This document shows positions 8,861 through 55,604 of a stretch of 59,636 bases of DNA, piece after piece; positions within the stretch are counted from its first letter, which is position 1; each line of letters starts with the position of its first letter. The DNA comes from a virus. The translations under genes were made by a program, and so were the position numbers. Location of the stretch: positions 1 through 59,636 of IMG/VR virus record IMGVR_UViG_3300011116_000547. The stretch is one strand, 5' to 3'. The notes below the pieces were generated by a model that did no database searches, had not been told where the DNA came from, and saw only the letters and a list, made by a program, of their open reading frames with translations.

Positions 8861-9088
8861 ATGCAAGGAAGATATTTAAGGCAGATTATAAATAAATTCA
8901 TGGTAGAATCTGAAGTTGCTAACAATGCAAGAGTTCAAGTTTATATGCCAAATGGAGAAACTTTTGATGTATCCGGTATTCAATTAATGGAAAATAAAAT
9001 CATTGGTGTAAGAGAATCACATAGATTAATCATTACAGTTGAGCCTACAAAATGGGGTATGGGTAAGATGATTAAGCGTATTTCATAA
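8861..9088 (+). CDS. Small conserved phage protein
   Basis: Seventy-five residues, AAAAAGGAATAGAA as ribosome site. A helix (QIINKFMVESEVANNARVQ) is followed by strands typical of a small SH3-like or Sm-like barrel (VYMPNGETFDVSGIQLMENK), suggesting RNA or DNA binding. It has no Cys. It is downstream of the structured leader at 8787-8844. The function is unknown. Confidence 0.75.
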   Translation: MQGRYLRQIINKFMVESEVANNARVQVYMPNGETFDVSGIQLMENKIIGVRESHRLIITVEPTKWGMGKMIKRIS

Positions 9089-9112
9089 TGTAATGGTTAA
9101 CTTGAATTTGAA

Positions 9113-9475: not shown

Positions 9476-9495
9476 TGTCGCACCCCAACTAAAAA

Positions 9496-9515
9496 CCTGT
9501 GGGCGGGTCCCACCC
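9496..9515. repeat. GC-rich hairpin repeat, copy 1
   Basis: Core CCTGTGGGCGGGTCCCACCC, preceded by ACTAAAAA. GTGGG and CCCAC can pair around CGGGT. Five more copies lie at 10842, 10884, 10926, 12486 and 12519; none lies in a gene. Confidence 0.85.
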
Positions 9516-9520
9516 ACGTT

Positions 9521-9716
9521 TGCTTGCGGCTTGTGCCTGCTGCTTGTTGGTACTTGTCACTTGTTCCTTGGCTCAAGGCAATAAAAAACTTGCGGGCGGG
9601 AATCCCTCCCGCTTGTGAGCTTGTGAGCTTGTGGCTTGTGCCTGCTGCTTGTGGGTACGGCCCGACCCCGAGTCTCCCCGGGTAGACACTCTAATGAGAA
9701 ATGATATCGGGCCATG
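9521..9716. repeat. CTTG-rich repeat tract and GC hairpin
   Basis: A 20-base direct repeat GGCTTGTGCCTGCTGCTTGT occurs at 9528-9547 and 9633-9652. Several GCTTGTG units (9611-9640) follow each other. At 9592-9612 GCGGGCGGG and CCCTCCCGC form a hairpin with one mismatch around AAT. The composition is far more GC-rich than the genes on either side, which suggests an acquired or selfish sequence. No gene is seen. Confidence 0.75.
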
Positions 9717-10322
9717 TTAATGTTTACCGTATGCAATGTTTTTAACATTACGATCCCAACAAGCCCGGCAACTTTTGCACTTGTTATCTTGCTCAGCGGC
9801 CGGGCATGTTTTTTCTGACGTAACAACGGTAGACGTCCAGGGCCAAAATGTTGCGGCCTTGCCGTCTACTTTATGGGCAGAAAACCTTATAATTAAATTT
9901 GATGGTACTTGATCCGGTGTTATACAACCAATAATTGAAGCTTCTCTTGTGGGTAACCAATGCTTAATATTCGGCGTTAGTTTACACACTTCAAAAATTT
10001 TCTTTAAATGATCTAATGACTGTAAATCTCCGGAATCGTGCCATCTAAAAAACTCTGTTTTTGTTTCTAGTATGCTTGTTGCCATGGCCTGGACCCATAG
10101 AGGATGGGTTAAAGAATCTAATCTACGTTGCATTGCATCTTTTACGTTTGGAAAACGGTACCTGCCTTTTAAAGCATAACAACCAAAGCAAACGGACCCT
10201 GGAATCTTAACAAGTTTACTACCTGTAATACATTTTGTGGCCGGTAAGTTATAACTATAACCAGGCATTTTGGAGGGCTTACTGAGCCCTCCAGTTATTA
10301 ATTTTAATTGATGCTTATCCAT
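9717..10322 (-). CDS. GP88-family cysteine-rich protein
   Basis: Protein of 201 residues resembling the phage gene product 88 family. It starts with GLSKPSKMPGYSYNLPATKC, then CFGCYALKGRYRF (Cys45, Cys48; Cys31 precedes), a conserved FFRWHDSGDL, PTREASI and a C-terminal CxxCxxC (Cys182, 185, 188, with Cys173). These cysteines could bind zinc or an iron-sulfur cluster. The biochemical role of the family is not settled. It is on the minus strand, coupled by TAATG overlap to a small upstream gene, and surrounded by GC-rich non-coding DNA. Codon use looks richer in GC than in the head genes. Confidence 0.8.
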   Translation of the reverse strand: MDKHQLKLITGGLSKPSKMPGYSYNLPATKCITGSKLVKIPGSVCFGCYALKGRYRFPNVKDAMQRRLDSLTHPLWVQAMATSILETKTEFFRWHDSGDLQSLDHLKKIFEVCKLTPNIKHWLPTREASIIGCITPDQVPSNLIIRFSAHKVDGKAATFWPWTSTVVTSEKTCPAAEQDNKCKSCRACWDRNVKNIAYGKH

Positions 10323-10492
10323 TACCTTTTAATTTTTTTCTTTATTGGAGCCTGGGCCCTGAAATTTGAATCAAAGCTGTTTAATCTTGCAGGCGTTAAC
10401 TCATACATATGAAACCCTGGCTCAGTTTTAATTTTCTTAAAACCTAAGTCTTCTAATTGTTTCATGCCGTTATTATTAACTCTAACTTTCAT
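10322..10492 (-). CDS. Small basic protein coupled to the GP88 gene
   Basis: Fifty-six residues with GGAGGAAAAAAC upstream of its ATG at 10492. A strand-helix start (MKVRVNNNGMKQLEDLGFKK) ends in a basic tail (PIKKKIKR). Its stop codon overlaps the GP88 start by one base, so the two form an operon and may act together. Confidence 0.75.
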   Translation of the reverse strand: MKVRVNNNGMKQLEDLGFKKIKTEPGFHMYELTPARLNSFDSNFRAQAPIKKKIKR

Positions 10493-10513
10493 GTTTTTTC
10501 CTCCGTTGTTATG

Positions 10514-10545
10514 TATACCCGGACCTCTTTCTCAGTCCGGGTATA
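10514..10545. other. Perfect 11-bp stem-loop upstream of the GP88 operon
   Basis: TATACCCGGAC (10514-10524) pairs perfectly with GTCCGGGTATA (10535-10545) around a 10-base loop. There is no T-run on either side, so it is not a standard terminator. On the minus strand it lies just before the ribosome site of the gene at 10322-10492, i.e. in the leader. Confidence 0.7.
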
Positions 10546-10833
10546 GCAAGGACTGATAATACACAGTATTTTAGCCAACGATTAAACGTTGTAACAGGAT
10601 TGCTGTATCACCTTTAACACCGAAACGATCTGGCCGAGTTTACGGCTCTATCTCTTTGCTTTCGCATTCATCGGTTGACTAGGAAGGGATGTGTGATCTA
10701 TTTCGCTAGCACCTTCTGTCAATTGAAATACTATCCCATCTAATCCCAGAAAGCAAGAATTAAATTTTAATGATTTGCCCCGGTCCTTGATCAACTAATC
10801 TTTATAAGTCAATGCGACATAGTGTCGCAGGCT
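10546..10833. other. Non-coding stretch with several hairpins, possible structured RNA
   Basis: No convincing gene on either strand. Visible stems: AATAC/GTATT (10558-10570), CAACG/CGTTG (10576-10591), GCCG/CGGC (10633-10646), GC-GAAA-GC tetraloop on the minus strand (about 10667-10674), and GGGAT/ATCCC (10686-10690 with 10733-10737). It includes GCTAGC. Composition is balanced unlike coding DNA here. Either a leader RNA of the minus-strand operon or an independent non-coding RNA; no known class recognised. Confidence 0.35.
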
Positions 10834-10945
10834 ACTAAATACCTGTGGGCGGGCCCCACCCAAGAATAATAAAACACTAAACACCTGTGGGCGGGCCCCA
10901 CCCAAGAATAATAAAACACTAAACACCTGTGGGCGGGCCCCACCC
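10834..10945. repeat. Tandem 42-bp repeats containing GC hairpins, copies 2-4
   Basis: Three hairpin cores CCTGTGGGCGGGCCCCACCC at 10842-10861, 10884-10903 and 10926-10945, spaced exactly 42 bases. The unit begins with ACTAAAYACC and ends with AAGAATAATAAAAC. The three lie just upstream of a promoter. Confidence 0.9.
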
Positions 10946-10969
10946 TAAAAAAAACATAAAAGATTATAG

Positions 10970-10998
10970 TTGACTTAATCTGGGATATTATGTTATAC
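10970..10998 (+). promoter_or_regulatory. Strong sigma70-like promoter
   Basis: TTGACT at 10970-10975, 17 bases, TTATAC at 10993-10998, about 30 bases before the start of the gene at 11028. ACAACGAAAGGAATAGT gives the ribosome site. Confidence 0.75.
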
Positions 10999-11027
10999 TT
11001 TCAAAAACTAACAACGAAAGGAATAGT

Positions 11028-11579
11028 ATGTCAAAAGCAATGACTAAATATCAGCTCGACCACTTTAGAGATAAAGTTAAGAGAGAGCTCGACCCTATGA
11101 TTGAACAACAAGAATTACTTGTTCGTCAATATGTATCACAGGCAACCGACACAGCTTCTAAAAAACTTGCCAAAAAAATAGGTGCTCAATCTATTATTGA
11201 TAAGTTAAAACAAGCTGAACAATACCTATTGGAAGCACAGGCAACAGCTAAAACTTTCTTTAAAAAGAAAGCTAACAATGAAAGCTTAAAAGGAAAACTT
11301 GATTACAAGTTTGCTTCTAATGATATTAAAGAGGATAGGATAACAGTTGCTCTTTGTGAGGAACAAATAAGAGAGTGGGCTAGTGAGCTTGCTCAACAAG
11401 AAATAGAAAAAAGACCAGAGGGCAAAAAACTTTCTGAATTGAAACAAGTTAAGAGAGTGGCACTTGATACAATAATGGAAGCACACGCCCCAGCCGAATT
11501 GATTGCTAATCTAGATAAAGTATTACAAGCTAGTATTGGTATCGGCTGGAATAATACAGCACCAAAAATTAGCGCATAA
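11028..11579 (+). CDS. Hypothetical helical protein, single-gene transcription unit
   Basis: Protein of 183 residues, mostly charged helix with heptad-like patterns and no membrane segment. It is isolated: its own promoter lies upstream and a strong terminator lies 8 bases after the stop. Genes with private promoter and terminator in phages are often expressed early and strongly. I do not recognise a family. Confidence 0.8.
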   Translation: MSKAMTKYQLDHFRDKVKRELDPMIEQQELLVRQYVSQATDTASKKLAKKIGAQSIIDKLKQAEQYLLEAQATAKTFFKKKANNESLKGKLDYKFASNDIKEDRITVALCEEQIREWASELAQQEIEKRPEGKKLSELKQVKRVALDTIMEAHAPAELIANLDKVLQASIGIGWNNTAPKISA

Positions 11580-11587
11580 ATAAAAAA

Positions 11588-11613
11588 GGGAACAGGGCAA
11601 AGGCCCTGTTCCC
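11588..11613. terminator. Bidirectional rho-independent terminator
   Basis: GGGAACAGGGC (11588-11598) pairs perfectly with GCCCTGTTCCC (11603-11613) around AAAG. On the minus strand the stem is followed by TTTTTTATTTA, a proper U-tract; on the plus strand a T-run comes about 15 bases later. It separates the convergent units at 11028 (+) and 11631-12337 (-). Confidence 0.9.
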
Positions 11614-11630
11614 TGTTCCAAGTTTCAATA

Positions 11631-11786
11631 TTATTTTTTTCTACTTTCCCTGTACTTTGTATCGAAATCCTTTTCTTGCCTTTTCTCTACTAGTAAAACA
11701 ATCCAATAGAATAAAACAGCAATCAACAAGGACAACGAAACAAATGTAATAAAGTAATCATAAAGTTCGTTTATTGTTTCAAGCAT
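11631..11786 (-). CDS. Small single-span membrane protein
   Basis: Fifty-one residues: short acidic start, hydrophobic helix about 13-34 (FITFVSLSLLIAVLFYWIVLLV), then a charged tail. It is last in a four-gene minus-strand operon and starts inside the upstream stop region (ATATGCTTGA). The function is unknown. Confidence 0.7.
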   Translation of the reverse strand: MLETINELYDYFITFVSLSLLIAVLFYWIVLLVEKRQEKDFDTKYRESRKK

Positions 11787-11961
11787 ATATTACCTTTGTT
11801 GTTTCCCTTTCATCGTAAGTTGATATTAAATCGTCTGTTAATGTATCATCACATTTAGTTAAAATAAAAGAACGAGTTTCCCCCTCTTTTATTGTGAAAC
11901 CTTGCTCAACAAATCGTTGAGCAAGATTATCAGTTATATTTATTTCAGTATTATATTCCAT
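11779..11961 (-). CDS. Small acidic hypothetical protein
   Basis: Sixty residues, acidic, with NITDNLAQRFVEQGFTIKEGE suggesting a helix then strands. It directly follows the 79-residue gene upstream with no gap (11962) and overlaps the membrane protein gene downstream. The function is unknown. Confidence 0.65.
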   Translation of the reverse strand: MEYNTEINITDNLAQRFVEQGFTIKEGETRSFILTKCDDTLTDDLISTYDERETTKVIYA

Positions 11962-12201
11962 TTAGACAACAGCCTCTATTTGATTAAAGTGTGCCCAACG
12001 AGGACCTTTGTATTCATCCTCGTATGATATTGTCCCAATGTAATCTAGTTCAGTATCATATTCCTTTACTTGGATAGCTGAATCCATTTCAGCTTTTTTG
12101 TCGTGATAGTCTAATGAAATATTAATAGCTTCAATAGTTCCTATTACTACACCCCTATCCCAAGTTCTTATTTTTACTTTATCATCTAACTTTATTTTCA
12201 T
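11962..12201 (-). CDS. Small SH3-like hypothetical protein
   Basis: Seventy-nine residues. The pattern DKVKIRTWDRGVVIGTIEAIN at the N-terminus, with short beta strands throughout and RWAHFNQIEAVV at the end, suggests a small SH3-like barrel as in small phage or ribosomal proteins. AAGGACTATAAT serves as ribosome site. Confidence 0.65.
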   Translation of the reverse strand: MKIKLDDKVKIRTWDRGVVIGTIEAINISLDYHDKKAEMDSAIQVKEYDTELDYIGTISYEDEYKGPRWAHFNQIEAVV

Positions 12202-12202
12202 A

Positions 12203-12337
12203 TTATAGTCCTTTATTTTTAGAACACACTCTTAATACATCTTGTTCTATTTTCTTAACTCTCTTTGTTATTAGATAAAGTATATCAAGTATTTGTGTTA
12301 TCTTTTCTTTTTGTGTCATCTTTCTTTTTGTTTCCAT
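12203..12337 (-). CDS. Small basic helical protein, first gene of minus-strand operon
   Basis: Forty-four residues, Lys-rich helix with ILDILYLI in the centre. CGAAAGTAATAAT precedes the ATG at 12337 and the TAA ends just before the next start. It lies downstream of the operator-like repeats at 12401-12423. Could be a DNA-binding regulator, but this is not shown. Confidence 0.55.
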   Translation of the reverse strand: METKRKMTQKEKITQILDILYLITKRVKKIEQDVLRVCSKNKGL

Positions 12338-12400
12338 ATTATTACTTTCGTTGTTAGTGATTATATCTTACTATTTTATAGGATATTATGTATATAGTTA

Positions 12401-12423
12401 TCAGCCACAATCTTGCCACAATT
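12401..12423 (-). repeat. Two 11-bp phased repeats, operator-like
   Basis: On the minus strand ATTGTGGCAAG is followed directly by ATTGTGGC, the same element as at 7399. The exact match with 7398-7412 is 15 bases (AATTGTGGCAAGATT, inverted). A possible promoter for the minus-strand operon (TTGTGG, 16 bases, TAATAT) overlaps it, so a protein bound here could control that operon. Confidence 0.55.
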
Positions 12424-12485
12424 CAAAAGATATTTGTATTATAATTCAATAGGATATTCTGTGATATTTTTACCACTACTAAATA

Positions 12486-12538
12486 CCTGTGGGCGGGTCC
12501 CACCCATGGTACTAAATACATGTGGGCGGGTCCCACCC
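12486..12538. repeat. GC-rich hairpin repeats, copies 5 and 6
   Basis: Cores at 12486-12505 (CCTGTGGGCGGGTCCCACCC) and 12519-12538 (CATGTGGGCGGGTCCCACCC), spaced 33 bases, each preceded by ACTAAATAC. Same family as at 9496 and 10842-10945. Confidence 0.85.
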
Positions 12539-12744
12539 TTACCATAGAGGTCCCAATGGGTTTACGATTTACTTTTATTCTAAGGAGGGGGGAGAGGGTA
12601 AATCAATTAAAGGGGTCCCAGACATACCCTTTAGTCTAAGATTTACATAGTTATAGTTAATAAATTCGTTTTGGGTTCCAAATTACCTATGGATTTATGC
12701 CCCCGGGGGTGTTAAAAATATTTTAGGTACCATAATTAAACATT
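12539..12744. other. TerL leader with G-rich tract and GC palindrome, packaging-site candidate
   Basis: No gene seen. It holds a purine run AAGGAGGGGGGAGAGGG (12582-12598), three GGTCCCA/GGGTTCCA-like motifs, a TCTAAG/GATTTAC pair repeated near 12577 and 12636, and the 10-bp palindrome CCCCCGGGGG at 12700-12709, all out of character with the AT-rich genome. Being directly upstream of TerL, it could be the pac or cos site or a control region. Confidence 0.4.
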
Positions 12745-14239: not shown

Positions 14240-15181
14240 ATGATTGAGAAAAAAATTAGTTACGAGATTAACATTGAAAAACCAAGTAAGACAAAACCTG
14301 TTAAACAAGGTGGAGTTTTAAATTATTTAGGAAAACAAAAAACAGTTAATGCTCCAGTTAAATGGAGATCATCACCTAAACATCCTATTGCACATCTTTC
14401 CTATATTACAAAAGATGAAGAAAAAATTTTAATAGATTTAAATTTATATGGTTCACTAAAAGGTAAACCCAACAGAGGTCCATTTGGACTTCCATCATTA
14501 CAAGGATCAGGTGGTGGCGCTGGCGGTGGAGACGGAGGCGGCGGTGGAGACGGAGGCGGCGGTGGAGATTCAGGAGCATCAGATAGTGGACCAGGAGGAT
14601 CAGATGATGGAACTGGACATGGGGGACCAGGACCAGGAGATTCAGGAGTATCAGGACCAGGTGGATCAGAAGGATTCGGCACTGACACTGGACCAGGGCC
14701 AGGAGAAGCAGCAGGAATGGGAGGACCATCAGGACCAGGTGGAACAGAAGGATTTAGTACTGACACTGGACCAGGACCAGGTGAGGCAGTTGGAATGGGT
14801 GAACAATCTGGAATTTCTGCAGCAGTAAATGCTGTGAATCAAGCAGTTCAAAATGCTGTAAATCAAGCAGTTCAAAATGCTGTGAATAATCCTGTTGCAA
14901 CAGCTGTTGGAATTATTGGAGGACCTGTTGCCGGAATGGTCGCAAATGCAATTAGCTCTGCTGTAAGTGCTGCTAACAGAGGAGCAACTGGACCAAGTGA
15001 TGATACTCAAGAAACTTCTTCAGTTCAAACTGGACCAGCAACTAGTACATCTACTGATGGAGGAATAACTACATTACCTCAATATGCACCATTATATAAT
15101 CAAGCAACAGGGGATCCTTTACTAGATTCATTAATTGCAAGATACAGAGCTAATATATCTCCTTCTTCTTTTGGAGTATGA
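14240..15181 (+). CDS. Gly/Pro-rich collagen-like virion-module protein
   Basis: Protein of 313 residues. The N-terminal 85 residues look globular. About 90-190 is built of Gly-rich runs, then Gly-Pro-rich repeats (SGPGGSEGF...TDTGPGPGEA twice). About 195-245 has a repeat NAVNQAVQNAV and a hydrophobic segment AVGIIGGPVAGMVANAISSAV. The C-terminus (LPQYAPLYNQATGDPLLDSLI) looks like a short docking tail. It lies between TerL and portal, so it is probably virion-associated. The Gly-Pro tract is a possible substrate for the prolyl-hydroxylase-like genes at 31.8-34.9 kb (inference). Confidence 0.8.
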   Translation: MIEKKISYEINIEKPSKTKPVKQGGVLNYLGKQKTVNAPVKWRSSPKHPIAHLSYITKDEEKILIDLNLYGSLKGKPNRGPFGLPSLQGSGGGAGGGDGGGGGDGGGGGDSGASDSGPGGSDDGTGHGGPGPGDSGVSGPGGSEGFGTDTGPGPGEAAGMGGPSGPGGTEGFSTDTGPGPGEAVGMGEQSGISAAVNAVNQAVQNAVNQAVQNAVNNPVATAVGIIGGPVAGMVANAISSAVSAANRGATGPSDDTQETSSVQTGPATSTSTDGGITTLPQYAPLYNQATGDPLLDSLIARYRANISPSSFGV

Positions 15182-29395: not shown

Positions 29396-30637
29396 ATGCC
29401 TTCTACATATACTACAGATCTAGCAATACAATTAATGGCAACTGGCGAAAACGCTGGTACCTGGGGACAAATTACAAATACAAATTTAGTGGTGGTTCAA
29501 CAAGCAATTGCTGGCTATGAATCTATTTCTATTGCAGGAGGTGCAGGAACAACTGCTCTTGTAATGACACAAAATGCATTAGCAACAGCAAGAAATGCTG
29601 TTATTAAATTAACAGGTACGATTACAGGAAATAGAATAGTCACAGTTCCAAATGGAATTGAAAAAACTTGGATCGTATCCAATGGAACAACAGGTGCATT
29701 CACAGTTCAATTTAAATATGCATCAACTGGAACTGGACAAACTTGGTCAACAACAGATAAAGGAATTAAAATTTTATATTCTGATGGATCAGATATTCAA
29801 GTTGTAGATTTATCTACATTATCAGGAACAGTAGCCACAGCTCAAATTGCAAACTTTGCAGTTACTACAGCTAAATTAGACACTAATGCAGTTACAGCAG
29901 TTAAAATTACACAATCAACAATTACACAAGCTAAACTTGCAGCTAACTCTGTTGGAGCAAATCAAATAGTTCAATCAACAATTACACAAGCTAAACTAGC
30001 GGCTAATTCTGTTGGATCAAATCAATTAATTAATACTGCAGTTACTCCTGCAACTTATACAGCAGCAACTATTACAGTTGATGCTGATGGTCGAATTACT
30101 GCTGCATCCTCTGGATCAGCAGGAGCTGGAATGGGAATACCAACATTAATGGTTTATGGACCTGCTTCAGGAACTTATACAGCAGCTCCAACTGCAAATA
30201 GAATAGGTGTATACCTGTATGGAGGTGCTAGTGGAGGAAGAGCCACTCCAGTGGCTTCACCTGGTTCAAATGGTGGTGGTGGTTTTTGGAATAAACCAAT
30301 TACACAACCTTTTTCTCAGCCATACAGTGTTGGTGGTGGTGGTAATTTTAGTCCTATGGCTTCTCCCGGAGCTGGTGGAGCTACAAATATAACAAATGTT
30401 GGAACTGCTAATGGAGGAAGTGGAGCGTCTACTCCTGGTAATCAACCAGGATCTGATTTAACAGTTCCTATAAACTTTAGAGGCGGTCCTTTCCAAAACG
30501 TTGGTTTTGGATTTCCACAATCTCCACAATTTGGTTTTGGAGGAGCTGGTTTAGGTGGTAATTATATGTGCGGAGATGCTACAGGTAGTCAGGGACTTGC
30601 AGGTGCAATAATAGTTTTTGAAAATACAGGTACTTAA
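29396..30637 (+). CDS. Tail fiber protein with Gly-rich tip
   Basis: Protein of 413 residues. STYTTDLAIQLMATGENAGTWG at the start is a widespread fiber N-terminus. About 150-215 holds repeats ITQSTITQAKLAANSVGxNQ (two clean copies), the beta-helical stalk type. About 230-413 is the C-terminal receptor-binding region with poly-Gly loops (GGASGGRATP, NGGGGFW, GGGGNF), similar to Gly-rich adhesin tips. AAAGGAATTTAAAAT is the ribosome site. The oxygenase cassette begins straight after. Confidence 0.85.
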   Translation: MPSTYTTDLAIQLMATGENAGTWGQITNTNLVVVQQAIAGYESISIAGGAGTTALVMTQNALATARNAVIKLTGTITGNRIVTVPNGIEKTWIVSNGTTGAFTVQFKYASTGTGQTWSTTDKGIKILYSDGSDIQVVDLSTLSGTVATAQIANFAVTTAKLDTNAVTAVKITQSTITQAKLAANSVGANQIVQSTITQAKLAANSVGSNQLINTAVTPATYTAATITVDADGRITAASSGSAGAGMGIPTLMVYGPASGTYTAAPTANRIGVYLYGGASGGRATPVASPGSNGGGGFWNKPITQPFSQPYSVGGGGNFSPMASPGAGGATNITNVGTANGGSGASTPGNQPGSDLTVPINFRGGPFQNVGFGFPQSPQFGFGGAGLGGNYMCGDATGSQGLAGAIIVFENTGT

Positions 30638-30638
30638 A

Positions 30639-31085
30639 ATGGCTTATTTTATTTTTCAAAAAAATTTAGATAATATTGAAGGAACATTATATAGAATTGC
30701 TGAAAATCAAGAAGATTTTAATAATTTAAATATTAATGATGATGATTATAAAATTATTGAAGATTCCTCTGAAAATTTTAATTTTGTAAAATTAAATCAA
30801 AAAAATGCTATAAAGTATAATCAAAACACAATTATTTATATAAATATTGTTAGTAGTTTTAAAAGTTCAAAAGACTTAAATTCTTACATTGATAGTTTAA
30901 AAAATTTAATTAAAGATTTTTTAAATAATAATCCGAATAATTCAGCTTACAATAAATGGAATAATTATTTAAATCAACTAACCTCATTAAACACTTCATC
31001 AATAACCTATCCATTAAATAAATCATTAGAACAATATTTTAATGATTTAGGACAACCTTCATTAAATATTTTACAAATACCATAA
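30639..31085 (+). CDS. Hypothetical protein after the fiber gene
   Basis: Protein of 148 residues from ATG 30639, which follows the fiber stop by one base; an in-frame ATG at 30618 lies inside the fiber gene. Starts AYFIFQKNLDNIEGTLYRIAEN. Very Asn/Lys/Ile rich: local AT content rises sharply here and stays high until 34.9 kb. A tail-fiber assembly chaperone is possible by position. Confidence 0.65.
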   Translation: MAYFIFQKNLDNIEGTLYRIAENQEDFNNLNINDDDYKIIEDSSENFNFVKLNQKNAIKYNQNTIIYINIVSSFKSSKDLNSYIDSLKNLIKDFLNNNPNNSAYNKWNNYLNQLTSLNTSSITYPLNKSLEQYFNDLGQPSLNILQIP

Positions 31086-31104
31086 AAAATGCTATTAAGT
31101 TAGC

Positions 31105-31860
31105 ATGTTTGATAAAGAAATAGAGTTTAGTGCTCATGAAGATTATTTTGCATTAAAAGAAGATTATCCAATCCCTGCAAAATTAAATATTCCAGATTGG
31201 TATAAAAATTTAGAACATACTGTTTTAAATAAAACAATTAAAGGATGTATACCTTTTTTAGATTCTTTAACAGCTGGGTATTTATTAAAAATGCCTCAAG
31301 ATTTTCATGTTAGACATAATGTTGATAATAAAAATAAAAAAGAAGAAACATTTAAAGACTCTTTTCAAACTTTTGGAATGCATGATCAGTCGCAATTATT
31401 ACATGCAAAACATATAAATTTAAATTCTGGATTTGATACACATTCAATAAAACAGTTAGAAGGGTCTCCTTTAGTAGAAAAAAATAAAAATTTACCTTTT
31501 TATAAAATATTAAACCCATGGAAAATAAAAACACCAAAAGGATATTCTTGTTTATTCGTTTCACCATTAAACAATTCTGACGATAGATTTTCAATTATCC
31601 CTGGAATTGTAGATACAGATTCTTTTCCACTTGAAGTAAATTTTCCAATTATAATTAATGGAGATAAATATCCTGTTTTAGAAACAACAATTAAAAAAGG
31701 AACGCCTTATGCTCAAGTAATACCTTTTAAAAGAGATTCATGGAAAATGATAGTAAAATCAAGGGAACAAAAAGAAATACAAAATTTTAGAATTTTTTAT
31801 GGGTTAAAATTATTAAATATATATAAAGATAAATATTGGAATAAGAAATCATGGAAATAA
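31105..31860 (+). CDS. DUF6065-like protein
   Basis: Protein of 251 residues. IPAKLNIPDWYKNLE, GCIPFLDSLTAGYLLKMPQDFHV and a PWKIKTPKGYSCLFVSP segment (about 130-145) followed by FPIIIN and GTPYAQVIPFKR fit a DUF6065-like family that occurs in marine phages and bacteria near 2OG oxygenases (recalled). The biochemical role is unknown; the double-stranded beta character may mean a cupin-like fold. It overlaps the first oxygenase gene by 10 bases, so it is part of the cassette. Confidence 0.72.
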   Translation: MFDKEIEFSAHEDYFALKEDYPIPAKLNIPDWYKNLEHTVLNKTIKGCIPFLDSLTAGYLLKMPQDFHVRHNVDNKNKKEETFKDSFQTFGMHDQSQLLHAKHINLNSGFDTHSIKQLEGSPLVEKNKNLPFYKILNPWKIKTPKGYSCLFVSPLNNSDDRFSIIPGIVDTDSFPLEVNFPIIINGDKYPVLETTIKKGTPYAQVIPFKRDSWKMIVKSREQKEIQNFRIFYGLKLLNIYKDKYWNKKSWK

Positions 31861-32414
31861 AAAATTTTATAAAGATATATGATGAAGTATTACCTTGGAA
31901 GGTATTGTCTAATTTAATTCGTTTTGCAAATAATTCAAAATTTGTAGAAACAAAAGTAGGTGTAGATGTTAAAATAGATTTTAATATAAGAAAAACATAT
32001 ACTTTACCATTATCTAATTTAGATAATTCTATGTCTAATGTGCATTGGTTTAATTTACTTTTTCATTATTTTGATAAAAATTTAAAACAATATAGATTTG
32101 ATGCAAATATATTAGACTATGATTATAGAAATATTTTTGACATAGAAATTTTAAAATATGAAAACACTGGATTTTATACTTGGCATGTTGATCATTTTGC
32201 AACAATTCCAAGAACAATGAGTTGTATTTTACTTCTTAATAATGATTACGAAGGTGGTAATTTATGTTTTAGAAATCCAGATGGATCAGGAGAATGGGAA
32301 GTAGAAGTTAAGCCCAATAGAATGATTATTTGGCCAAGTAATTTTTTATATCCTCATACGGTTAAACCAGTGACGAAAGGAACAAGGTATTCAGTTGTAG
32401 CATGGGCACTATAA
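31851..32414 (+). CDS. 2OG-Fe(II) oxygenase, prolyl-4-hydroxylase-like
   Basis: Protein of 187 residues with the complete ligand set: YTWHVDH gives His112 and Asp114, LYPHTVKPV gives His169, GTRYSVVAW gives Arg179 for 2-oxoglutarate. EGGNLCFRNPDG and WPSNFLYPH match the PiuC/prolyl-4-hydroxylase branch. It should hydroxylate a substrate with O2, Fe(II) and 2OG. It overlaps genes on both sides, within a cassette of five related genes. Confidence 0.88.
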   Translation: MEIKNFIKIYDEVLPWKVLSNLIRFANNSKFVETKVGVDVKIDFNIRKTYTLPLSNLDNSMSNVHWFNLLFHYFDKNLKQYRFDANILDYDYRNIFDIEILKYENTGFYTWHVDHFATIPRTMSCILLLNNDYEGGNLCFRNPDGSGEWEVEVKPNRMIIWPSNFLYPHTVKPVTKGTRYSVVAWAL

Positions 32415-32947
32415 GAGATTTTAAATATAAATTAATAAATAATTTTTTAAGTAAAGAAGAAATTAAACTATTAACAGATTATTGTAGAATTAAACATAGA
32501 ATTAATTTTGATTCTTTTGAGTTTTTACAAGGTGATAACGGAGATACTTGTTTTTATGGAGATCCATTAATGGAATCTCTTATGGTTAATAAATTAGAAT
32601 TAATGCAAAAAGAAACTGGTTTAGAATTATTGCCAACTTATGCATTCTGGAGAATGTATACAATAAATGCTGATTTAAAAAAACACATTGACAGACCATC
32701 ATGTGAAATAAGTGTTACAGCAATGATTGGTTCAGATGGAACATCTTGGCCTATATTTATAGATGGAAAAAAGATAGAATTGAAACCAGGAGATGCTGCT
32801 ATATATCTTGGATGTGAAGTAGAACATTGGAGAGAAGAATTTAAAGGAGATTGGCATGCACAAACATTTTTACATTATGTAGATAAAAATGGATTAAATA
32901 AAGAATGGTTTAAGGATAAAAGATTATTATACGGAACACAAAAATGA
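32402..32947 (+). CDS. 2OG-Fe(II) oxygenase-like protein
   Basis: Protein of 181 residues. HIDRPSCEISVTAMIG gives His95 and Asp97; CEVEHWREEF gives His142; the usual distal Arg/Lys is not certain (Arg144 is too close to His). LKPGDAAIYLG is the strand before the last His. The HxDRxSCExS opening is a distinct subtype. It overlaps both neighbours (13 bases upstream, 4 downstream). Confidence 0.82.
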   Translation: MGTIRDFKYKLINNFLSKEEIKLLTDYCRIKHRINFDSFEFLQGDNGDTCFYGDPLMESLMVNKLELMQKETGLELLPTYAFWRMYTINADLKKHIDRPSCEISVTAMIGSDGTSWPIFIDGKKIELKPGDAAIYLGCEVEHWREEFKGDWHAQTFLHYVDKNGLNKEWFKDKRLLYGTQK

Positions 32948-33504
32948 ACTTTGATTTAAAAGTTAAAGATATTTCTATAGAAACATATATTTTGACAGGT
33001 AAAATAGATAATCAAGAAGTAATTAATAATTTAATTAATTTTATAAAAATTTCAAAAGATGAAGAATTAAGCTATAAAACACATGTTAAAGGTCATTTTA
33101 CAGGTTTTAAAAGTTTAATAGAAAATAAAGATTTTTTTAATTTTTTAAAAATTATTCAAGAAAATATAAAAATTATTTATAATAAGAATTTTATAATTAA
33201 TGATGCATGGGGAAATATTTGTAAAAAAGGAGAAGAGGTAGTAGAACACAATCATGGAAGTATTACTGGTTTTTGTGGTATACTTTATTTAACTGAAAAT
33301 GGACCTGGGACTTATTTTAAAGACTATGATTTATTAATTAAAGAAGAAATAGGAAAATACATTTTATTTCATCCAAAATTATTTCATAAAGTTGAAAAAA
33401 TAACAAATGATATAGAAAGAATAACTGTTGCTTTTAATATGAATGAAATTAAAACTTGGGATAATTTAACAAACATAAAATGGGTAAATAAAAATGAAAT
33501 TTAA
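32944..33504 (+). CDS. 2OG-Fe(II) oxygenase-like protein (HxH type)
   Basis: Protein of 186 residues. EHNHGSITGFCGILYLT (101-117) fits the 2OG-FeII_Oxy_5 pattern HxHxxSxxSGxxYL with His102 and His104. FHPKLFHKVEK gives His148 and ERITVAFN gives Arg159. YFKDYDLL lies between, on the lid. Asp is absent from the first position pair, as is usual in this subfamily. Substrate unknown. Confidence 0.78.
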   Translation: MNFDLKVKDISIETYILTGKIDNQEVINNLINFIKISKDEELSYKTHVKGHFTGFKSLIENKDFFNFLKIIQENIKIIYNKNFIINDAWGNICKKGEEVVEHNHGSITGFCGILYLTENGPGTYFKDYDLLIKEEIGKYILFHPKLFHKVEKITNDIERITVAFNMNEIKTWDNLTNIKWVNKNEI

Positions 33505-33712
33505 ACAATATGAAAATGGGTCTTGTGATATAGAGTTTTCTGTAAAAGAAAGATGGATTATTTTAAAAAAAGGAAAAATACATTTATCAGATGAAGCATT
33601 ACGACATTTTGGTAATAAACTCGTGCAAATGGTTGCGGATTGGAATTTAAAATTTAATGAAGAGTTAAAAAATAAACTTACTTTTAATGATACTAAAATA
33701 GAAGGAAAATAA
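33494..33712 (+). CDS. Small hypothetical protein within the oxygenase cassette
   Basis: Seventy-two residues, overlapping the flanking genes by 11 and 1 bases. MKFKQYENGSCDIEFSVKERWIILKKGKIHLSDEALRHF begins with a beta hairpin and then a helix; no catalytic motif. It resembles small phage proteins of unknown function that usually lie elsewhere; could be a cofactor or a stray insertion. Confidence 0.65.
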   Translation: MKFKQYENGSCDIEFSVKERWIILKKGKIHLSDEALRHFGNKLVQMVADWNLKFNEELKNKLTFNDTKIEGK

Positions 33713-34344
33713 TGTTTTTTTCAAGTTCAATATACATAGAAGAAGAACTTTCTTTTTTAGAAAATTTTAATAAACATACTAATTCTTATATTGAAAATTC
33801 AAGGAATAAAAACAAACAAAAAATGTTTAATAATAGAGATTTTGGATTAGTTCATCATTCAGATTCACTATTAAATGATTTAAATTTTTTTAATTTTATA
33901 AAATTAATATGCAAAAAATCTTACAATATTTTAGATAAACAAGGGTATGACTTGTCAAATTTTTTATTAGTTGCATCGGAAATGTGGGTTCAAGAATTTT
34001 CAAAAGAAGGAGGTGGTTTTCACAGTTTACACACTCATTGGAATGGACATATTTCTGGGTTTTATTTTTTAAAATGTTCAGATAAAACATCTTTTCCAAT
34101 TTTTCATGATCCAAGACCTGGTAAAATGATGATTCAATTACCTGAAAAAAATGAAAATGAAATTTCAGATTCTTCTGAAAAAATAATTTTTAAACCAAAA
34201 CCTGGAACTCTTGTATTTTTTAATTCATATTTACCACATGAATTTGTGGTTGATCAAGGGGTGGATCCTTTTAGGTTTATTCATTTTAACGTACAGGCCA
34301 TTCAAAAAAGATTAATTAATGGTGATATTAAAAAAATAAATTAA
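33712..34344 (+). CDS. 2OG-Fe(II) oxygenase (2OG-FeII_Oxy_5-like)
   Basis: Protein of 210 residues. FHSLHTHWNGHISGFYFL gives His107 and His109, FHDPRPGK is the family's conserved middle motif, LVFFNSYLPHEF gives His176, and PFRFIHFNVQA gives Arg188. It is the best match in the cassette to the 2OG-FeII_Oxy_5 family. Start at the end of the previous stop (TAATG). Confidence 0.85.
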   Translation: MFFSSSIYIEEELSFLENFNKHTNSYIENSRNKNKQKMFNNRDFGLVHHSDSLLNDLNFFNFIKLICKKSYNILDKQGYDLSNFLLVASEMWVQEFSKEGGGFHSLHTHWNGHISGFYFLKCSDKTSFPIFHDPRPGKMMIQLPEKNENEISDSSEKIIFKPKPGTLVFFNSYLPHEFVVDQGVDPFRFIHFNVQAIQKRLINGDIKKIN

Positions 34345-34932
34345 ATGAAAAATAATCATGAATTTATTAAATTATTTGAAACTTTTGTTTTATTTAATAA
34401 ATTAAATTTAGACTTAGAAAAATATTTAAAATATATTTACGATATTTATAAAATTGATAATAATGGAAGAAAAATATCTAACTTTGGAGGTTGGCAAAGT
34501 AATTTTTTAAATTTATCTGATTCTATTTTAGAACCATTCTTAAATGAAATTTCCAAAAATAGTAAAATTTTATTAGAAAATTATTCACTTAATAATAGAA
34601 ATTATAAAATAGAAAGTATGTGGGCAAATATAAATAAATATAAAGATTCAAATCACGTTCATCATCATAGCGGATCTGTAATATCTGGGGTTTTTTATTT
34701 AAAAACTAATAAAGATTGTGGATCAATAGTTTTTAAACATCCTTCAGAAATAATTAATTTTTGTTGGAGACGTGATGATTATAAAGAATACAATCAAACA
34801 AATGGATTTTTTTATGAATTTCAACCAGAAGATAATGCTTTATTATTATTTCCATCTTGGCTTAATCATTATGTAAATCCTAATTTAAACAAAGAAGTAG
34901 ATAGGGTCTCTATTTCTTTTAATATTGTTTAA
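34345..34932 (+). CDS. 2OG-Fe(II) oxygenase (2OG-FeII_Oxy_5-like)
   Basis: Protein of 195 residues beginning right after the previous stop. HVHHHSGSVISGVFYL supplies His104 and His106, FKHPSEI is the middle motif, LFPSWLNHYVNP gives His175 and DRVSISFNIV gives Arg187. Last of the cassette. A 49-base spacer with no clear terminator separates it from the next tail gene. Confidence 0.85.
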   Translation: MKNNHEFIKLFETFVLFNKLNLDLEKYLKYIYDIYKIDNNGRKISNFGGWQSNFLNLSDSILEPFLNEISKNSKILLENYSLNNRNYKIESMWANINKYKDSNHVHHHSGSVISGVFYLKTNKDCGSIVFKHPSEIINFCWRRDDYKEYNQTNGFFYEFQPEDNALLLFPSWLNHYVNPNLNKEVDRVSISFNIV

Positions 34933-34981: not shown

Positions 34982-36898
34982 ATGCCTTTAAAAAAAATAC
35001 CAATAAAAGCTGGATTTAATAAACAAGATACCGCAACTGCCGCTGAGGGTCAGTGGATAGATGGGGATTATGTACGCTTTCGTTATGGCTATCCTGAGAA
35101 AATAGGTGGCTGGCAACAATTACTTCCTGAAACATTAGCCGGTGTTGCAAGAGCTCAGCACACATGGACAGATTTAAGTGGAAAGAAATATGCAGCTATT
35201 GGAACAAATAAAATATTAGCTATTTATTATGAGGGAGCTTTTTATGACATTACTCCACTTGGAACAGCTTTAACATCTTGTACATTAGCTTCTACAACAT
35301 CATCAACTACTGTAACTGTTACAAAAGCAGGACATGGTTTATCAGTTGGAGATTACATTAGATTTACTTCTCCTTCTCTTGCAGGCGGAGGTGTTACAAC
35401 TTTTTCAAATGCTAATTTTACAACAAATACTTTTGAAGTAAAAACAGTTCCATCATCTTCTACTTTTACTGTCACCATGCCTGTTACAGAAGGTGGTACA
35501 GGAATGTCTGGAGGTGGTTCTACAATTACTACAACTCCTTACATATTTGTAGGTCCGGTTAATCAAACTTATGGTTATGGATGGGGAACTTCAACTTGGG
35601 GAACAGTTGCATGGGGAGAAGCATCCTCATCTCCTACCGTTGTTCTTTCTCCAGCTAGCTGGTCGCTAGATAATTTTGGACAAATATTAGTTGCAACCGT
35701 TAAAGATGGTAAAACATTTTCATGGGATCCATCCGTTGGAGGAGCTCTCACAACACGAGCGACTGCAATATCAAATGCTCCAACAAAATCTACAATGACT
35801 ATTGTATCAGATAGAGATAGACATTTAATTGCACTTGGAACAGAAACAACTATAGGATCTCCTTCTACACAAGATCCAATGTTTATAAGATTTTCAAACC
35901 AAGAAGATTACAATACTTGGGCTCCAACTGCAACAAATACTGCTGGAACATTTAGACTGGATACCGGAAACTACATTGTTGGAGCCGTACAAGGAAAAGA
36001 TTATATATTTATTTTAACGGATCAGGCAGCTTACACTATGCAATTTGTTGGTCCTCCTTTTGTATTTTCAATAAGACAGGTTGGAACGAATTGTGGGTGT
36101 ATTGGTCAGCATTCAATAGTCTTTGCTCAAGGAGCTGTGTTTTGGATGGGCTTTGGGGGAGGATTCTTTGTGTATGATGGAACTGTAAAACAATTACCAT
36201 CATTAGTTGAAGATTATGTATTTACAACAGGAGGAGGTAATTTAGGAATAAATTACAATGCCTCTGATATTGTTTATGGTTCTCACAATAGTTTATTTAA
36301 TGAAATAGTTTGGTTTTACCCAACAGCAAATTCAACAGCAGTTAATGCATCGGTAGTTTATAACTTCGTTGAAAATACTTGGACTACAATGTCACTTGCT
36401 AGAACAACTTATTCAGATGCACAAACTTATGATAAGCCATATGCTACAAAATGGAATTCAACAGCAACACCAAGTTTTCCAACTATTAATGGTGTAACAA
36501 ATACTTATGGTGCATCTATTTATTATGAACATGAAACAGGTGTTAATGAAGTAAGTTACACTGGAGTTAAAACAGCTATTCCTGCTTACATTGAATCAGG
36601 TGACTTTGATTTAGATGTAGAAGGAGATGGTCAATATTTAATGAAAATAAATAGGTTTATTCCAGACTTTAAAATCCTTACAGGAAATGCTAAGGTGACT
36701 TTATTGTTAAGAGATTATCCATCTCAAACACAAAATAGTCAGATGTTAGGACCATATACGGTTACTTCATCTACAACTAAAATAGATACAAGAGCAAGAA
36801 ATAGATTAATGAGTATTAAAGTTGAAAATGAATCTACAGATGAAAACTGGAGATATGGATTATTTAGAGTAGATATTCAACCTGATGGAAGAAGATAA
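34982..36898 (+). CDS. Large tail structural protein
   Basis: Protein of 638 residues. PLKKIPIKAGFNKQDTATAAEGQWIDGDYVRFRYGYPEKIGGW (start) and repeated WxDLSG, TIVSDRDRHLIALG, YIVGAVQGKDYIFILTDQAAYTM motifs suggest a beta-propeller like P22 gp10/tail stabilisation proteins. An inserted domain around 95-175 (TVTVTKAGHGLSVGDYIRFT) is Thr/Ser rich. YGWGTSTWGTVAWGE near residue 200 resembles the WG segments of the fiber at 28185. Confidence 0.8.
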   Translation: MPLKKIPIKAGFNKQDTATAAEGQWIDGDYVRFRYGYPEKIGGWQQLLPETLAGVARAQHTWTDLSGKKYAAIGTNKILAIYYEGAFYDITPLGTALTSCTLASTTSSTTVTVTKAGHGLSVGDYIRFTSPSLAGGGVTTFSNANFTTNTFEVKTVPSSSTFTVTMPVTEGGTGMSGGGSTITTTPYIFVGPVNQTYGYGWGTSTWGTVAWGEASSSPTVVLSPASWSLDNFGQILVATVKDGKTFSWDPSVGGALTTRATAISNAPTKSTMTIVSDRDRHLIALGTETTIGSPSTQDPMFIRFSNQEDYNTWAPTATNTAGTFRLDTGNYIVGAVQGKDYIFILTDQAAYTMQFVGPPFVFSIRQVGTNCGCIGQHSIVFAQGAVFWMGFGGGFFVYDGTVKQLPSLVEDYVFTTGGGNLGINYNASDIVYGSHNSLFNEIVWFYPTANSTAVNASVVYNFVENTWTTMSLARTTYSDAQTYDKPYATKWNSTATPSFPTINGVTNTYGASIYYEHETGVNEVSYTGVKTAIPAYIESGDFDLDVEGDGQYLMKINRFIPDFKILTGNAKVTLLLRDYPSQTQNSQMLGPYTVTSSTTKIDTRARNRLMSIKVENESTDENWRYGLFRVDIQPDGRR

Positions 36899-38787: not shown

Positions 38788-38982
38788 ATGGATAAGAAAG
38801 AATATCATATAGATACAGAAACTGTTACAGTAATAAAGAATAAGAAAACAGGATATGTTTATAAAGATGAAGAAGAACTTAAAGCTGCAAACGTTGACCC
38901 TAATGATATTAGTCGTGATGTTGTAGTAAGAGTAACTAATAAAGGACTAGAATTGTTTAAGAAATTCATGAATGATAAATGA
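38788..38982 (+). CDS. Small acidic hypothetical protein
   Basis: Sixty-four residues. EYHIDTETVTVIKNKKTGYVYKDEEELKAANVDPNDI: strands then a short helix; ends LFKKFMNDK. It overlaps the glycosyltransferase start (ATGATAAATGA). I recall the KNKKTGxxYKdeEE phrase as frequent in marine phages. The function is unknown. Confidence 0.7.
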   Translation: MDKKEYHIDTETVTVIKNKKTGYVYKDEEELKAANVDPNDISRDVVVRVTNKGLELFKKFMNDK

Positions 38983-39911
38983 AACCTAGAGGTGGAACCG
39001 AATTACAATTTGAATTTTTAGAAAAACATGTATCTAAAGAATTATTAGATCAGGTACAGATTTGTACATCTGTTCCAGGTAAAGTTCCATTACATCCAAC
39101 TAAATTAAATATCCTTTGGCAAAAAAATTCATATGATCAACCAAATCTTGCGCCTTGGTTCAAGGACAAATCTAATCATGATAAATACGATTGGTATGTA
39201 TTTAACTCTCATTGGAACTATGAAAAGTTTAGATATTACTTTGATATTCCAACACATAAATCTATTGTCATTAAAAATGGGGTAGTGCCAATTGTACCAA
39301 GAACAAGACATGTTAAAGGTGAACCTATTAAATTAATATTTCATCCAACACCATGGAGAGGATTAAATGTAATATTAGCTGCAATGCAATTAGTTAAAAA
39401 TCCACTCGTTAGTTTAGATGTATATTCTTCAACACAAGTTTATGGTGATTCATTTAAAGAAGCTAATGATGATGTATATAAAGAATTATATGACCAGGCT
39501 AAAACATTACCTAATGTAAATTACATTGGTTATAAACCTCATGAATACATAAGAGAGAATTTACATAAATATCACATCTTTGCATTTCCAAGTATTTGGG
39601 AAGAGACATTTTGTATATCGGCACTTGAAGCAATGGCCGCTGGACTTTATTGTATAACCACGGACCTTGGAGCTCTTTATGAAACAGGAGCTGAGTTTAT
39701 AACATTCATTCCTTATGAAAAATCATTTACAAGTTTAGCGCATAAATTTGCATATGCAATTGATCATGCTGCAGACACGCTAGATCATCCTGCTATCAGA
39801 CAGCATTTAGATATGCAAATAGATTACACTAATAGATTCTATAATTGGAATAAAATTGGATATGCCTGGACTAACTTTTTAAAAGGAGCTCTTAATGCAA
39901 GATTCAAGTAA
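38979..39911 (+). CDS. Glycosyltransferase, GT4-like
   Basis: Protein of 310 residues. KPRGGTELQFEFLEKH (start) is the GG loop of GT-B enzymes, HPTPWRGLNVILAAMQLV (about 115-132) the conserved donor-site region, IGYKPHEYIRENLHKYHIFAFPSIWEETFCISALEAMAAGLYCITTD (about 185-231) the E-x7-E-type donor motif. A short N-terminal Rossmann lobe makes it smaller than cellular enzymes. It may glycosylate phage fibers, DNA or host surface; pairs with the next gene. Confidence 0.85.
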   Translation: MKPRGGTELQFEFLEKHVSKELLDQVQICTSVPGKVPLHPTKLNILWQKNSYDQPNLAPWFKDKSNHDKYDWYVFNSHWNYEKFRYYFDIPTHKSIVIKNGVVPIVPRTRHVKGEPIKLIFHPTPWRGLNVILAAMQLVKNPLVSLDVYSSTQVYGDSFKEANDDVYKELYDQAKTLPNVNYIGYKPHEYIRENLHKYHIFAFPSIWEETFCISALEAMAAGLYCITTDLGALYETGAEFITFIPYEKSFTSLAHKFAYAIDHAADTLDHPAIRQHLDMQIDYTNRFYNWNKIGYAWTNFLKGALNARFK

Positions 39912-53900: not shown

Positions 53901-53948
53901 TTAATACTAGGGGCAAGGTAATACTTGCCCCAAACAACAAGGGCATTT

Positions 53949-55604
53949 ATGGAGAAAGAATTTGCTGAGATATTCAGCGGACTAAAAAGAAATTTTGGTG
54001 TTGCTTATTTAGATGAATTTACAGTTGATCCTAATACAGGAAAGAAAAAACCAAAAAAATATGGATGGTCTTTTAAAGAGATAACTGAAAAACATTATCT
54101 AGATCATTTAAATGGTGTAACTTCTATTGGTATTCAACCATGTGATGATGATGGCATGGCAAGCTTTGGGGCTATTGATATTGATGATAAAGAACATAGT
54201 TATTCAAATTTTCCATATAAAAGATATTTAGATATTATAAAAGAAAACAATCTTCCATTAATTCCAGTTAAATCAAAAAGTGGAGGACTTCATTTATATT
54301 TATTTTTAAAAGAAAAAGTAAGAGCTGTATTTTTAAGAAATTTTTTAGAAAGTTTATTGTATGTTTTAAAATTGAAACCAAGTACAGAAGTATATCCGAA
54401 ACAAACTGAACTTGGATTTGATGAAGAGAAAAAAGAATATTCAAATGGTCAATATATAAATCTTCCATACTTTAATTGTAATGAAAGAGTTGCAATTAAT
54501 TATGATGGTACTCCTTTTACCGTAGAACAATTCATTAAAGTTGTTAATCATAACAAAAAAAGTAAACAAGAATTAGAAGAGTTTTCTCTCGCCCTAGTGA
54601 AAACTGTCTTACAAGGAGGTCCAGATGAATTTAATGATGGCCCTCCTTGTCTACAGATTATGGCTAAAGAACCATTGAGTGATGCTAGAGATAGATGGTT
54701 ATATAACTACATGGTGTTTGCTAAGAAAAAGTATCCTGATAATTGGCAAGAAGTTCTTAAAGCAGCTCCACAAAAATATTTTATAAAAGACTCTAATGGT
54801 GTTGTGTTAGATCATTGGGGATCAGAGAAAAAAATAATAGATAAAATCAGATCTTGGAAAAAAGATAATACAAAAGGTTATACATGCACTCAAGAACCTA
54901 TTGTTAATTTCTGTATGAAAGTTGAATGTCTTAAAAAGAAATATGGTGTTGGATCCGACAGAAAAAAAATGTTTCCACCATTATCTAATTTAGTAAAAAT
55001 AAATTATCCAGAACCAGAATATACTTTTAATGTTGAACTTCCAGATAATAAAGGAAGTAAAGTCATTAGAGCTAAAGATATGAAACAAATTAAAGATCAA
55101 GAAGAATTACGAACATTAATAATGAAGACAGCAAATATCTATGTTGCAAAAGTAAAAGGAGATGATTTTGAAAATGTTATTGCTAAGTTACTACCTCCAG
55201 TAGAGATACATCAACCACCTAAAGGAACAACACCAGATGAATTATTACATGAATACCTGGAAGAATATCTTAATGGACCAAAAGCAAAATCATATGCTTC
55301 TTTTAAATCCGGCGCTGTATTAGTAGAAGAAGGATTTGCATATTTTAAATTTGCAAACTTTTATAACACTTTAAAAAATAAAGAATGGAAAGAAAGAAAA
55401 GAAAGAACAGCTCAAAGAATAAAAGAAAGATATAAAGCAGAATTTGGAATTAAAAAAAGATTTCCGAAATTAAATAATGAAGCTGCAAATTATGAAGCAA
55501 TAGAAGTTGTAAAAATAAATTTAAAAGCTGAAGGAAATGAACTTTTAAAAGAAATAGTTAAAACAGAATTAGTTAAGATGAAAGGAAATAAAGACGTATT
55601 CTAA
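53949..55604 (+). CDS. Primase-polymerase, archaeo-eukaryotic primase type
   Basis: Protein of 551 residues from ATG 53949; an in-frame TTG at 53925 is possible. SFGAIDIDD supplies Asp77 and Asp79, and VKSKSGGLHLYLFL supplies His115: the DxD...sxH pattern of AEP primases (TOTE-type/PrimPol). A C-terminal segment around 320-345 with CTQEPIVNFCMKVECLKKKYG holds three cysteines that recall PriL/PriCT iron-sulfur or zinc regions. It would prime DNA synthesis for the PolA below. No DnaG-type primase is present, which supports this role. Confidence 0.82.
   Translation: MEKEFAEIFSGLKRNFGVAYLDEFTVDPNTGKKKPKKYGWSFKEITEKHYLDHLNGVTSIGIQPCDDDGMASFGAIDIDDKEHSYSNFPYKRYLDIIKENNLPLIPVKSKSGGLHLYLFLKEKVRAVFLRNFLESLLYVLKLKPSTEVYPKQTELGFDEEKKEYSNGQYINLPYFNCNERVAINYDGTPFTVEQFIKVVNHNKKSKQELEEFSLALVKTVLQGGPDEFNDGPPCLQIMAKEPLSDARDRWLYNYMVFAKKKYPDNWQEVLKAAPQKYFIKDSNGVVLDHWGSEKKIIDKIRSWKKDNTKGYTCTQEPIVNFCMKVECLKKKYGVGSDRKKMFPPLSNLVKINYPEPEYTFNVELPDNKGSKVIRAKDMKQIKDQEELRTLIMKTANIYVAKVKGDDFENVIAKLLPPVEIHQPPKGTTPDELLHEYLEEYLNGPKAKSYASFKSGAVLVEEGFAYFKFANFYNTLKNKEWKERKERTAQRIKERYKAEFGIKKRFPKLNNEAANYEAIEVVKINLKAEGNELLKEIVKTELVKMKGNKDVF

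Follow-up and report, generated by a model that had tools for sequence, protein, structure and literature searches.

Why should a marine phage carry a row of oxygenase genes between a tail fibre and the next structural protein? Oxygenases dependent on Fe(II) and 2-oxoglutarate (2OG) rank among the commonest marine-phage genes that still lack an explanation, and most often they are classed as host-metabolism genes. The question is raised here by the IMG/VR virus record IMGVR_UViG_3300011116_000547, analysed over its full length of 59,636 nucleotides (59.6 kb; hereafter the window). Its relatives are Pelagibacter phages; its portal is of the SU10 type, its terminase of the T4 type, and its DNA polymerase belongs to family A. 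Eight genes lie between the fibre gene (29396) and the gene of a phrog_3287 virion structural protein (34982; hereafter the tail gene), and five of the eight are oxygenase-like. Among relatives of the window, the variable tip of the fibre and an invariant core of these genes are exchanged jointly relative to the phage backbone. We see an even chance that the row is a module for maturation of the adhesin tip, swapped between phages along with that tip. The genes concerned are as follows:

29396..30637, + strand: receptor-binding fibre, with an N-terminal anchor and, from about residue 230 on, a variable C-terminal tip that is rich in Gly and contains Pro-Gly
30639..31085, + strand: orf155, conserved, between fibre and core
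31105..31860, + strand: g1, phrog_7084 (weakly DUF6065), invariant core gene
31851..32414, + strand: ox1, PF13640 prolyl-4-hydroxylase-like 2OG-Fe(II) oxygenase, invariant core
32402..32947, + strand: ox2, phrog_2954, mislabelled "ferrochelatase"; double-stranded beta-helix oxygenase according to its model, invariant core
32944..33504, + strand: ox3, PF13759 oxygenase (HxH...H...R) in the ox2/s72 slot
33494..33712, + strand: s72, protein of 72 amino acids, core gene in 196/202 relatives
33712..34344, + strand: ox4, PF13759 oxygenase in the s72/tail gene slot
34345..34932, + strand: ox5, PF13759 oxygenase in the s72/tail gene slot
34982..36898, + strand: phrog_3287 virion structural protein, flanking gene that tracks the backbone and not the module

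Searches of IMG/VR yielded 202 non-redundant loci, each covering the stretch from g1 through the tail gene. Both of these genes are present in all loci by selection, and loci found with ox2 as the query contain ox2 by construction, which is not so where g1 or the tail gene served as the query. Both ox1 and ox2 were present in 202/202 loci, always in the order g1-ox1-ox2, and s72, a gene inside the row at 33494, belongs to the conserved core as well. Other genes are found in three slots (ox1/ox2, ox2/s72 and s72/tail gene), with 105 gene orders among the 202 loci. The number of oxygenase-like genes per locus ranges from two to seven (two in 65 loci, three in 59, four in 45, five in 23, six in nine and seven in one), the slot genes being assigned with our own cluster-seeded profiles, several of whose seeds are weak Pfam matches and a few tentative. 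The window locus has five oxygenases and no transferase, and the bare core (g1, the two core oxygenases and s72, with no transferase) stands alone in 53/202 loci. Partners found in the slots are an O-carbamoyltransferase (34 loci), a DXD glycosyltransferase (21), a QueC-like ligase (8), sulfotransferases (7, frequently accompanied by a small kinase and a nucleotidyltransferase), a Trp halogenase (7) and a CmcI-type methyltransferase (2). In loci L034, L037, L038, L122, L057 and L359, a sulfotransferase, a small P-loop protein resembling adenosine phosphosulfate (APS) kinase and a nucleotidyltransferase occur together, possibly as a set for making phosphoadenosine phosphosulfate (PAPS) and transferring its sulfate.

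An earlier note on the window, made from its letters alone, had treated the five-gene cassette as special and had suggested, from its AT-rich base use, that it was acquired as a block. Five oxygenases in a cassette is a high number, yet the range seen among relatives and the fibre-side arrays of isolated T4-like phages show that it is not unique. The row is indeed more AT-rich than its surroundings (GC 21%–27% versus ∼33%–39% in most flanking DNA). Since the core is universal in relatives, the module region is AT-rich in 157/157 measurable ones, and turnover is confined to the slots, recent gain of such a block was rejected. Of the six genes whose co-occurrence the note proposed to check, g1, ox1 and ox2 are constant, whereas the slot oxygenases turn over.

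To follow inheritance, distances between homologous genes were correlated by Mantel tests in 40 loci with both flanks, and in 34 for comparisons with the fibre. The upstream flank was the homologue of the gene at 27072, the downstream flank was the tail gene, and the N-terminal part of the fibre was its first 130 residues. The two flanks are correlated with each other (0.6–0.7 in 34–40 loci; 0.72 at n = 40) and hardly with g1 or ox2 (0.00–0.17, 40 loci). The N-terminal part of the fibre follows both flanks (0.77 for the upstream gene, 0.63 for the tail gene), and the tip correlates with g1 (0.67) and little with the upstream gene (0.10). With both flanks controlled, the correlation of the tip was 0.62 with g1, 0.47 with ox1, 0.61 with ox2 and 0.55 with s72 (each p = 0.0005); with g1 controlled in addition, 0.34 remained for ox2 (p = 0.0005). 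A larger set of 163 loci gave 0.74 for tip and g1, 0.65 for tip and ox1, and 0.34 for tip and tail gene. Within a distant clade (n = 23) the values were 0.36 for g1 and 0.46 for ox2 (p = 0.001), and within a close set (n = 54) they were 0.41 for g1 (p = 0.0015) and 0.02 for the tail gene. Part of the correlation between tip and core is due to this two-clade structure. Because the fibre N terminus tracks the backbone and the tip tracks the core, tip and core are exchanged together. Matching of slot genes to the tip gave a weak signal in 54 loci (family-wise error rate 0.04 for ox4 and 0.02 for ox5; Mantel 0.14, p = 0.03) and was rejected, the signal being gone in 163 loci with relatedness controlled.

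Each of the 163 distinct tips is rich in Gly (median 28%), contains Pro-Gly (median four) and has variable loops. The sole strongly Gly-rich proteins found in HTVC033P, HTVC023P and Mosig adjoin oxygenase clusters, in a scan covering all but ∼3 kb of the HTVC033P genome and ∼11 kb of that of HTVC023P. Mosig has exactly one such protein in 141 kb, two genes from an array of six oxygenases (two mislabelled ones included) beside fibre genes. In S-CREM1, a collagen-like protein and a Trp halogenase are encoded close to a run of eight tandem 2OG genes. Oxygenase arrays adjoin the tail-fibre genes of S-SCSM1, and no Gly-rich protein was seen in the stretch of that genome that was fetched. These three T4-like phages resemble the window in carrying tandem oxygenases beside tail-fibre genes but are of a different phage type, and no g1 homologue was found in their records by tblastn. 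Mosig also carries a large cluster behind its tail fibres (MT647606.1, 54–72 kb; L387), with Asp/Arg hydroxylases, a carbamoyltransferase, MoaA-type enzymes, aminotransferases and methyltransferases.

The enzymatic nature of the row was examined gene by gene. Open reading frames at 31105, at 33494 and at the five oxygenase-like positions given in the earlier note (31851, 32402, 32944, 33712 and 34345) were confirmed; those from 31105 to 34345 overlap or almost abut, and the five lie between the fibre and a large structural gene. Pfam matches were obtained for ox1 (PF13640, 2e-18), ox3 (PF13759, 1e-7), ox4 (PF13759, 1e-15) and ox5 (PF13759, 1e-22), and none for ox2. The ligands are H112xD114/H169/R179 in ox1, H102xH104/H148/R159 in ox3, H107xH109/H176/R188 in ox4 and H106xH108/H175/R187 in ox5, all conserved among relatives. 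In ox2, H95xD97/H142 are conserved, with Q154 and R144 in place of the distal Arg of the other genes. The pattern claimed earlier, two HxD and three HxH genes with a distal His in each and a distal Arg in four, is therefore correct, and the iron ligands are conserved rather than lost in relatives. With Pfam scores above cut-off and conserved ligands and distal Arg, ox1, ox3, ox4 and ox5 belong to the 2OG-Fe(II) superfamily, and ox1 matches prolyl 4-hydroxylases by sequence. The families phrog_2297 and phrog_274 and a Mosig gene (L158, 9660–10172), called "DNA endonuclease (V)", also match ox1, and so this label may be wrong for oxygenases too.

The assignment of ox2 is less direct. It is a member of phrog_2954, a family that phage databases call "ferrochelatase", and two pelagiphage papers treat genes of this family as ferrochelatases partnering 2OG oxygenases (PMC9599517; PMC11561400). 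A search of the window for PF00762 (ferrochelatase) gave no match, whereas control genomes were positive. No match to known oxygenases was found by sequence, and profile comparison showed no sequence-level relation to ox1, so the fold was needed for assignment. An AlphaFold2 model built from 29 relatives (predicted local distance difference test, pLDDT, 92.4) is a double-stranded beta-helix of the 2OG-oxygenase type, the structure check that the earlier note had suggested for this product. Its top PDB matches are the HIF prolyl hydroxylase PHD2 and a Pseudomonas prolyl-4-hydroxylase (E ∼3e-8). The residues H95, D97, H142, R84, R144 and Q154 are invariant in the window and in 20 cell-genome loci, a pelagiphage-like contig among them. 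Q154 is near the usual spacing of the distal basic residue; compared with the prolyl 4-hydroxylase/PHD2 family, which ox1 matches by sequence and ox2 by fold, ox2 appears to lack the usual distal Arg/Lys, with R144 and R84 invariant. Judged from the modelled fold and the ligands, the ferrochelatase label is wrong for the ox2 family, and ox2 looks like a further 2OG-Fe(II)-type oxygenase.

Some bacterial relatives of ox2 with identical ligands are found in loci for ribosomally synthesized and post-translationally modified peptides (RiPPs) of the LanM/NHLP kind and for nonribosomal peptide synthetases (NRPS). One adjoins LanM and an NHLP-type leader peptide (L437), another is near an NHLP-like C39 exporter (L451), and a third lies between NRPS genes (L390); other cellular relatives adjoin unrelated genes. 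The lanthipeptide and NRPS loci point to peptidyl or aminoacyl substrates.

The core gene g1 had been called DUF6065-like. Its match to PF19541 (DUF6065) is weak (E 0.08; 12.8 bits, below the cut-off of 26.6), and the gene is instead a member of phrog_7084, whose profile it matches over its full length (3e-45, residues 4–246). Sequence searches for solved relatives of ox2 and g1 returned none. The model of g1 is poor (pLDDT 64), and its weak likeness to dUTPase (Foldseek E 4e-3) hints at a dUTPase-like beta-clip fold. Speculatively, a trimeric fold of this kind would fit a partner of a trimeric fibre. The gene is also conserved in haloarchaeal tailed viruses, where it closes the fibre/baseplate block and where no annotated oxygenase was seen in its neighborhood; the motif PGIVDTD...GTPxxQVIPFKR is conserved in part among these haloviruses. 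Possibly, orf155 is a fibre chaperone.

The multi-step modification put forward in the earlier note is probable, and its target, given there as a glycan, protein or nucleotide, is better narrowed to the fibre tip. Under the adhesin-tip reading, the recombination unit would consist of the fibre tip, orf155, g1, ox1, ox2 and s72, with one breakpoint within the fibre gene and the other ahead of the next structural gene. We infer that, late in infection, the prolyl-hydroxylase-like ox1 and ox2 would add hydroxyl groups to side chains in the Gly-rich tip, possibly in its Pro-Gly motifs, with g1, s72 and orf155 as partners or chaperones. ox3–ox5 and the halogenases would act at other residues of the same fibre protein, and transferases would add carbamoyl, sulfate, methyl or sugar to the new hydroxyls. 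The modified tip may then have an altered receptor fit, or may resist host decoys and proteases. Hydroxylation of tip residues is the best-supported reading of the chemistry, as judged from sequences and models, because ox1 matches prolyl hydroxylases, relatives of ox2 occur in RiPP and NRPS loci, and the slot enzymes are of kinds that decorate hydroxyls or aromatics.

Several observations weigh against this explanation. In a smaller close subset (n = 17), none of the tip-core correlations was significant. The linkage of tip and core is a linkage of neighbouring genes, and co-inheritance is no proof of function, although adjacency alone leaves unexplained that the N-terminal half of the fibre gene tracks the backbone. 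Slot content shows no covariation with tip sequence when g1 and the tail gene are controlled (partial r −0.02, 163 loci), and slot genes may therefore have their targets in regions that the fibres have in common, or elsewhere. A relation of more Pro-Gly to more oxygenases was rejected, as the number of oxygenases does not rise with the Pro-Gly count. Mosig has further 2OG genes adjoining uvsW/uvsY, and distant relatives of ox2 are also found in the DNA-replication region of cyanophage P-SSM7. To our knowledge, other Gly-rich phage adhesins, such as gp38 of T-even phages, function without such enzymes.

Alternatively, the enzymes could modify the host surface polysaccharide and block superinfection or re-adsorption to debris, and the tip would have to match the altered surface. 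Co-inheritance of tip and core is compatible with this as well, surface glycans typically involve glycosyl-, sulfo- and carbamoyltransferases, and a group-1 glycosyltransferase lies downstream at 38979. Yet the 53 bare-core modules have no transferase, the position within a structural, presumably late, block would be late for exclusion, and ox1 and ox2 resemble protein hydroxylases; we regard this explanation as rather unlikely. It is less probable still that a recombination hot spot beside the fibre collects unrelated cargo, with tip and core traveling together as mere neighbours, as would suit slots that do not covary with tip sequence and fibre loci that, in the excerpts of PMC3909814, are known variable islands. 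Such a hot spot fails to explain why ox1 and ox2 are never absent beside g1 in 202 loci, with conserved ligands, or why the pairing of a Gly-rich fibre with a 2OG array recurs in the unrelated Mosig. Hypermodification of DNA or nucleotides, by TET/JBP-like oxidation and then glycosyl or carbamoyl transfer, has precedent in phage systems where carbamoyl- and glycosyltransferases act after TET, and the g1 model is weakly dUTPase-like, but the five window genes have no TET/JBP match, the g1 model is of low confidence, and the placement in the tail block and the co-inheritance with the fibre tip make this very improbable. Equally doubtful is an auxiliary role in which the oxygenases and the "ferrochelatase" alter host metabolism or iron and heme supply, as the annotation and co-occurrence in the excerpted papers suggest (PMC9599517; PMC11561400), since PF00762 does not match ox2, whose modelled fold resembles prolyl hydroxylases, and gene position and fibre-tip co-inheritance are left unexplained.

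Oxygenase-rich pelagiphages and fibre-side 2OG arrays are already on record. As in the window, relatives of ox1, ox4 and ox2 are adjacent in HTVC023P and HTVC033P. Excerpts of PMC9599517 and PMC11561400 read HTVC023P-type gene groups as auxiliary metabolic or heme genes, unlike here, and contain neither the tip-linked core, the slots and the co-inheritance nor the non-ferrochelatase fold. Fe(II)-dependent oxygenases are listed under host recognition in variable metaviromic islands of marine phages, in passages that propose neither an enzyme-tip mechanism nor the module structure described here (PMC3909814). In the open-access literature, we found no report of a tip-linked core, a slot system or a correction of the ferrochelatase label, and no paper linking phage oxygenases to fibre modification. 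Exchange of a tip with its helpers is familiar from Tfa-type cassettes, in which a fibre tip and its cognate chaperone swap as a unit and the fibre N terminus stays; the helpers here are mainly oxygenases. RiPP tailoring oxygenases of LanM/NHLP clusters, where cellular ox2 relatives with the same ligands occur, act on a small precursor peptide, whereas the proposed phage substrate is a full-size virion protein.

Other parts of the window were also surveyed. Downstream of the module, the group-1 glycosyltransferase (38979–39911) has a counterpart at a similar position in HTVC023P (gp77), and therefore it may share the modification pathway of the module. Between the terminase and the portal, a protein of 313 amino acids (14240–15181) has nine Pro-Gly, up to 47% Gly per 100-residue stretch, raised local GC (0.43) and no family match. 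Upstream of the terminase (9000–12700), long open reading frames are scarce, the coding strand switches, GC reaches 0.42 and no RNA family matched; searches for RNA families and tRNAs across the window gave none. An S-adenosylmethionine decarboxylase (PF02675; 49395–49967) is encoded in the late part of the genome, and a primase-like protein (53925–55604) matches the archaeo-eukaryotic primase domain of TOTE conflict systems (PF22548).

Seasonal enrichment of pelagiphage 2OG-Fe(II) and "ferrochelatase" genes is described in the excerpts of PMC11561400, and pelagiphage seasonality has so far been discussed by way of these two gene groups. Tip-linked inheritance and the oxygenase fold of ox2 shift the question from metabolism to host recognition. 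We suggest, tentatively, that receptor recognition in aquatic phages may be varied chemically and not by sequence change alone. An adhesin tip would be passed on along with hydroxylases of its own and with additional oxygenases, halogenases and group transferases that can be combined in different ways, and a virion protein would thereby be matured along a RiPP-like line. If true, fibre sequence alone would be insufficient for predicting host range.

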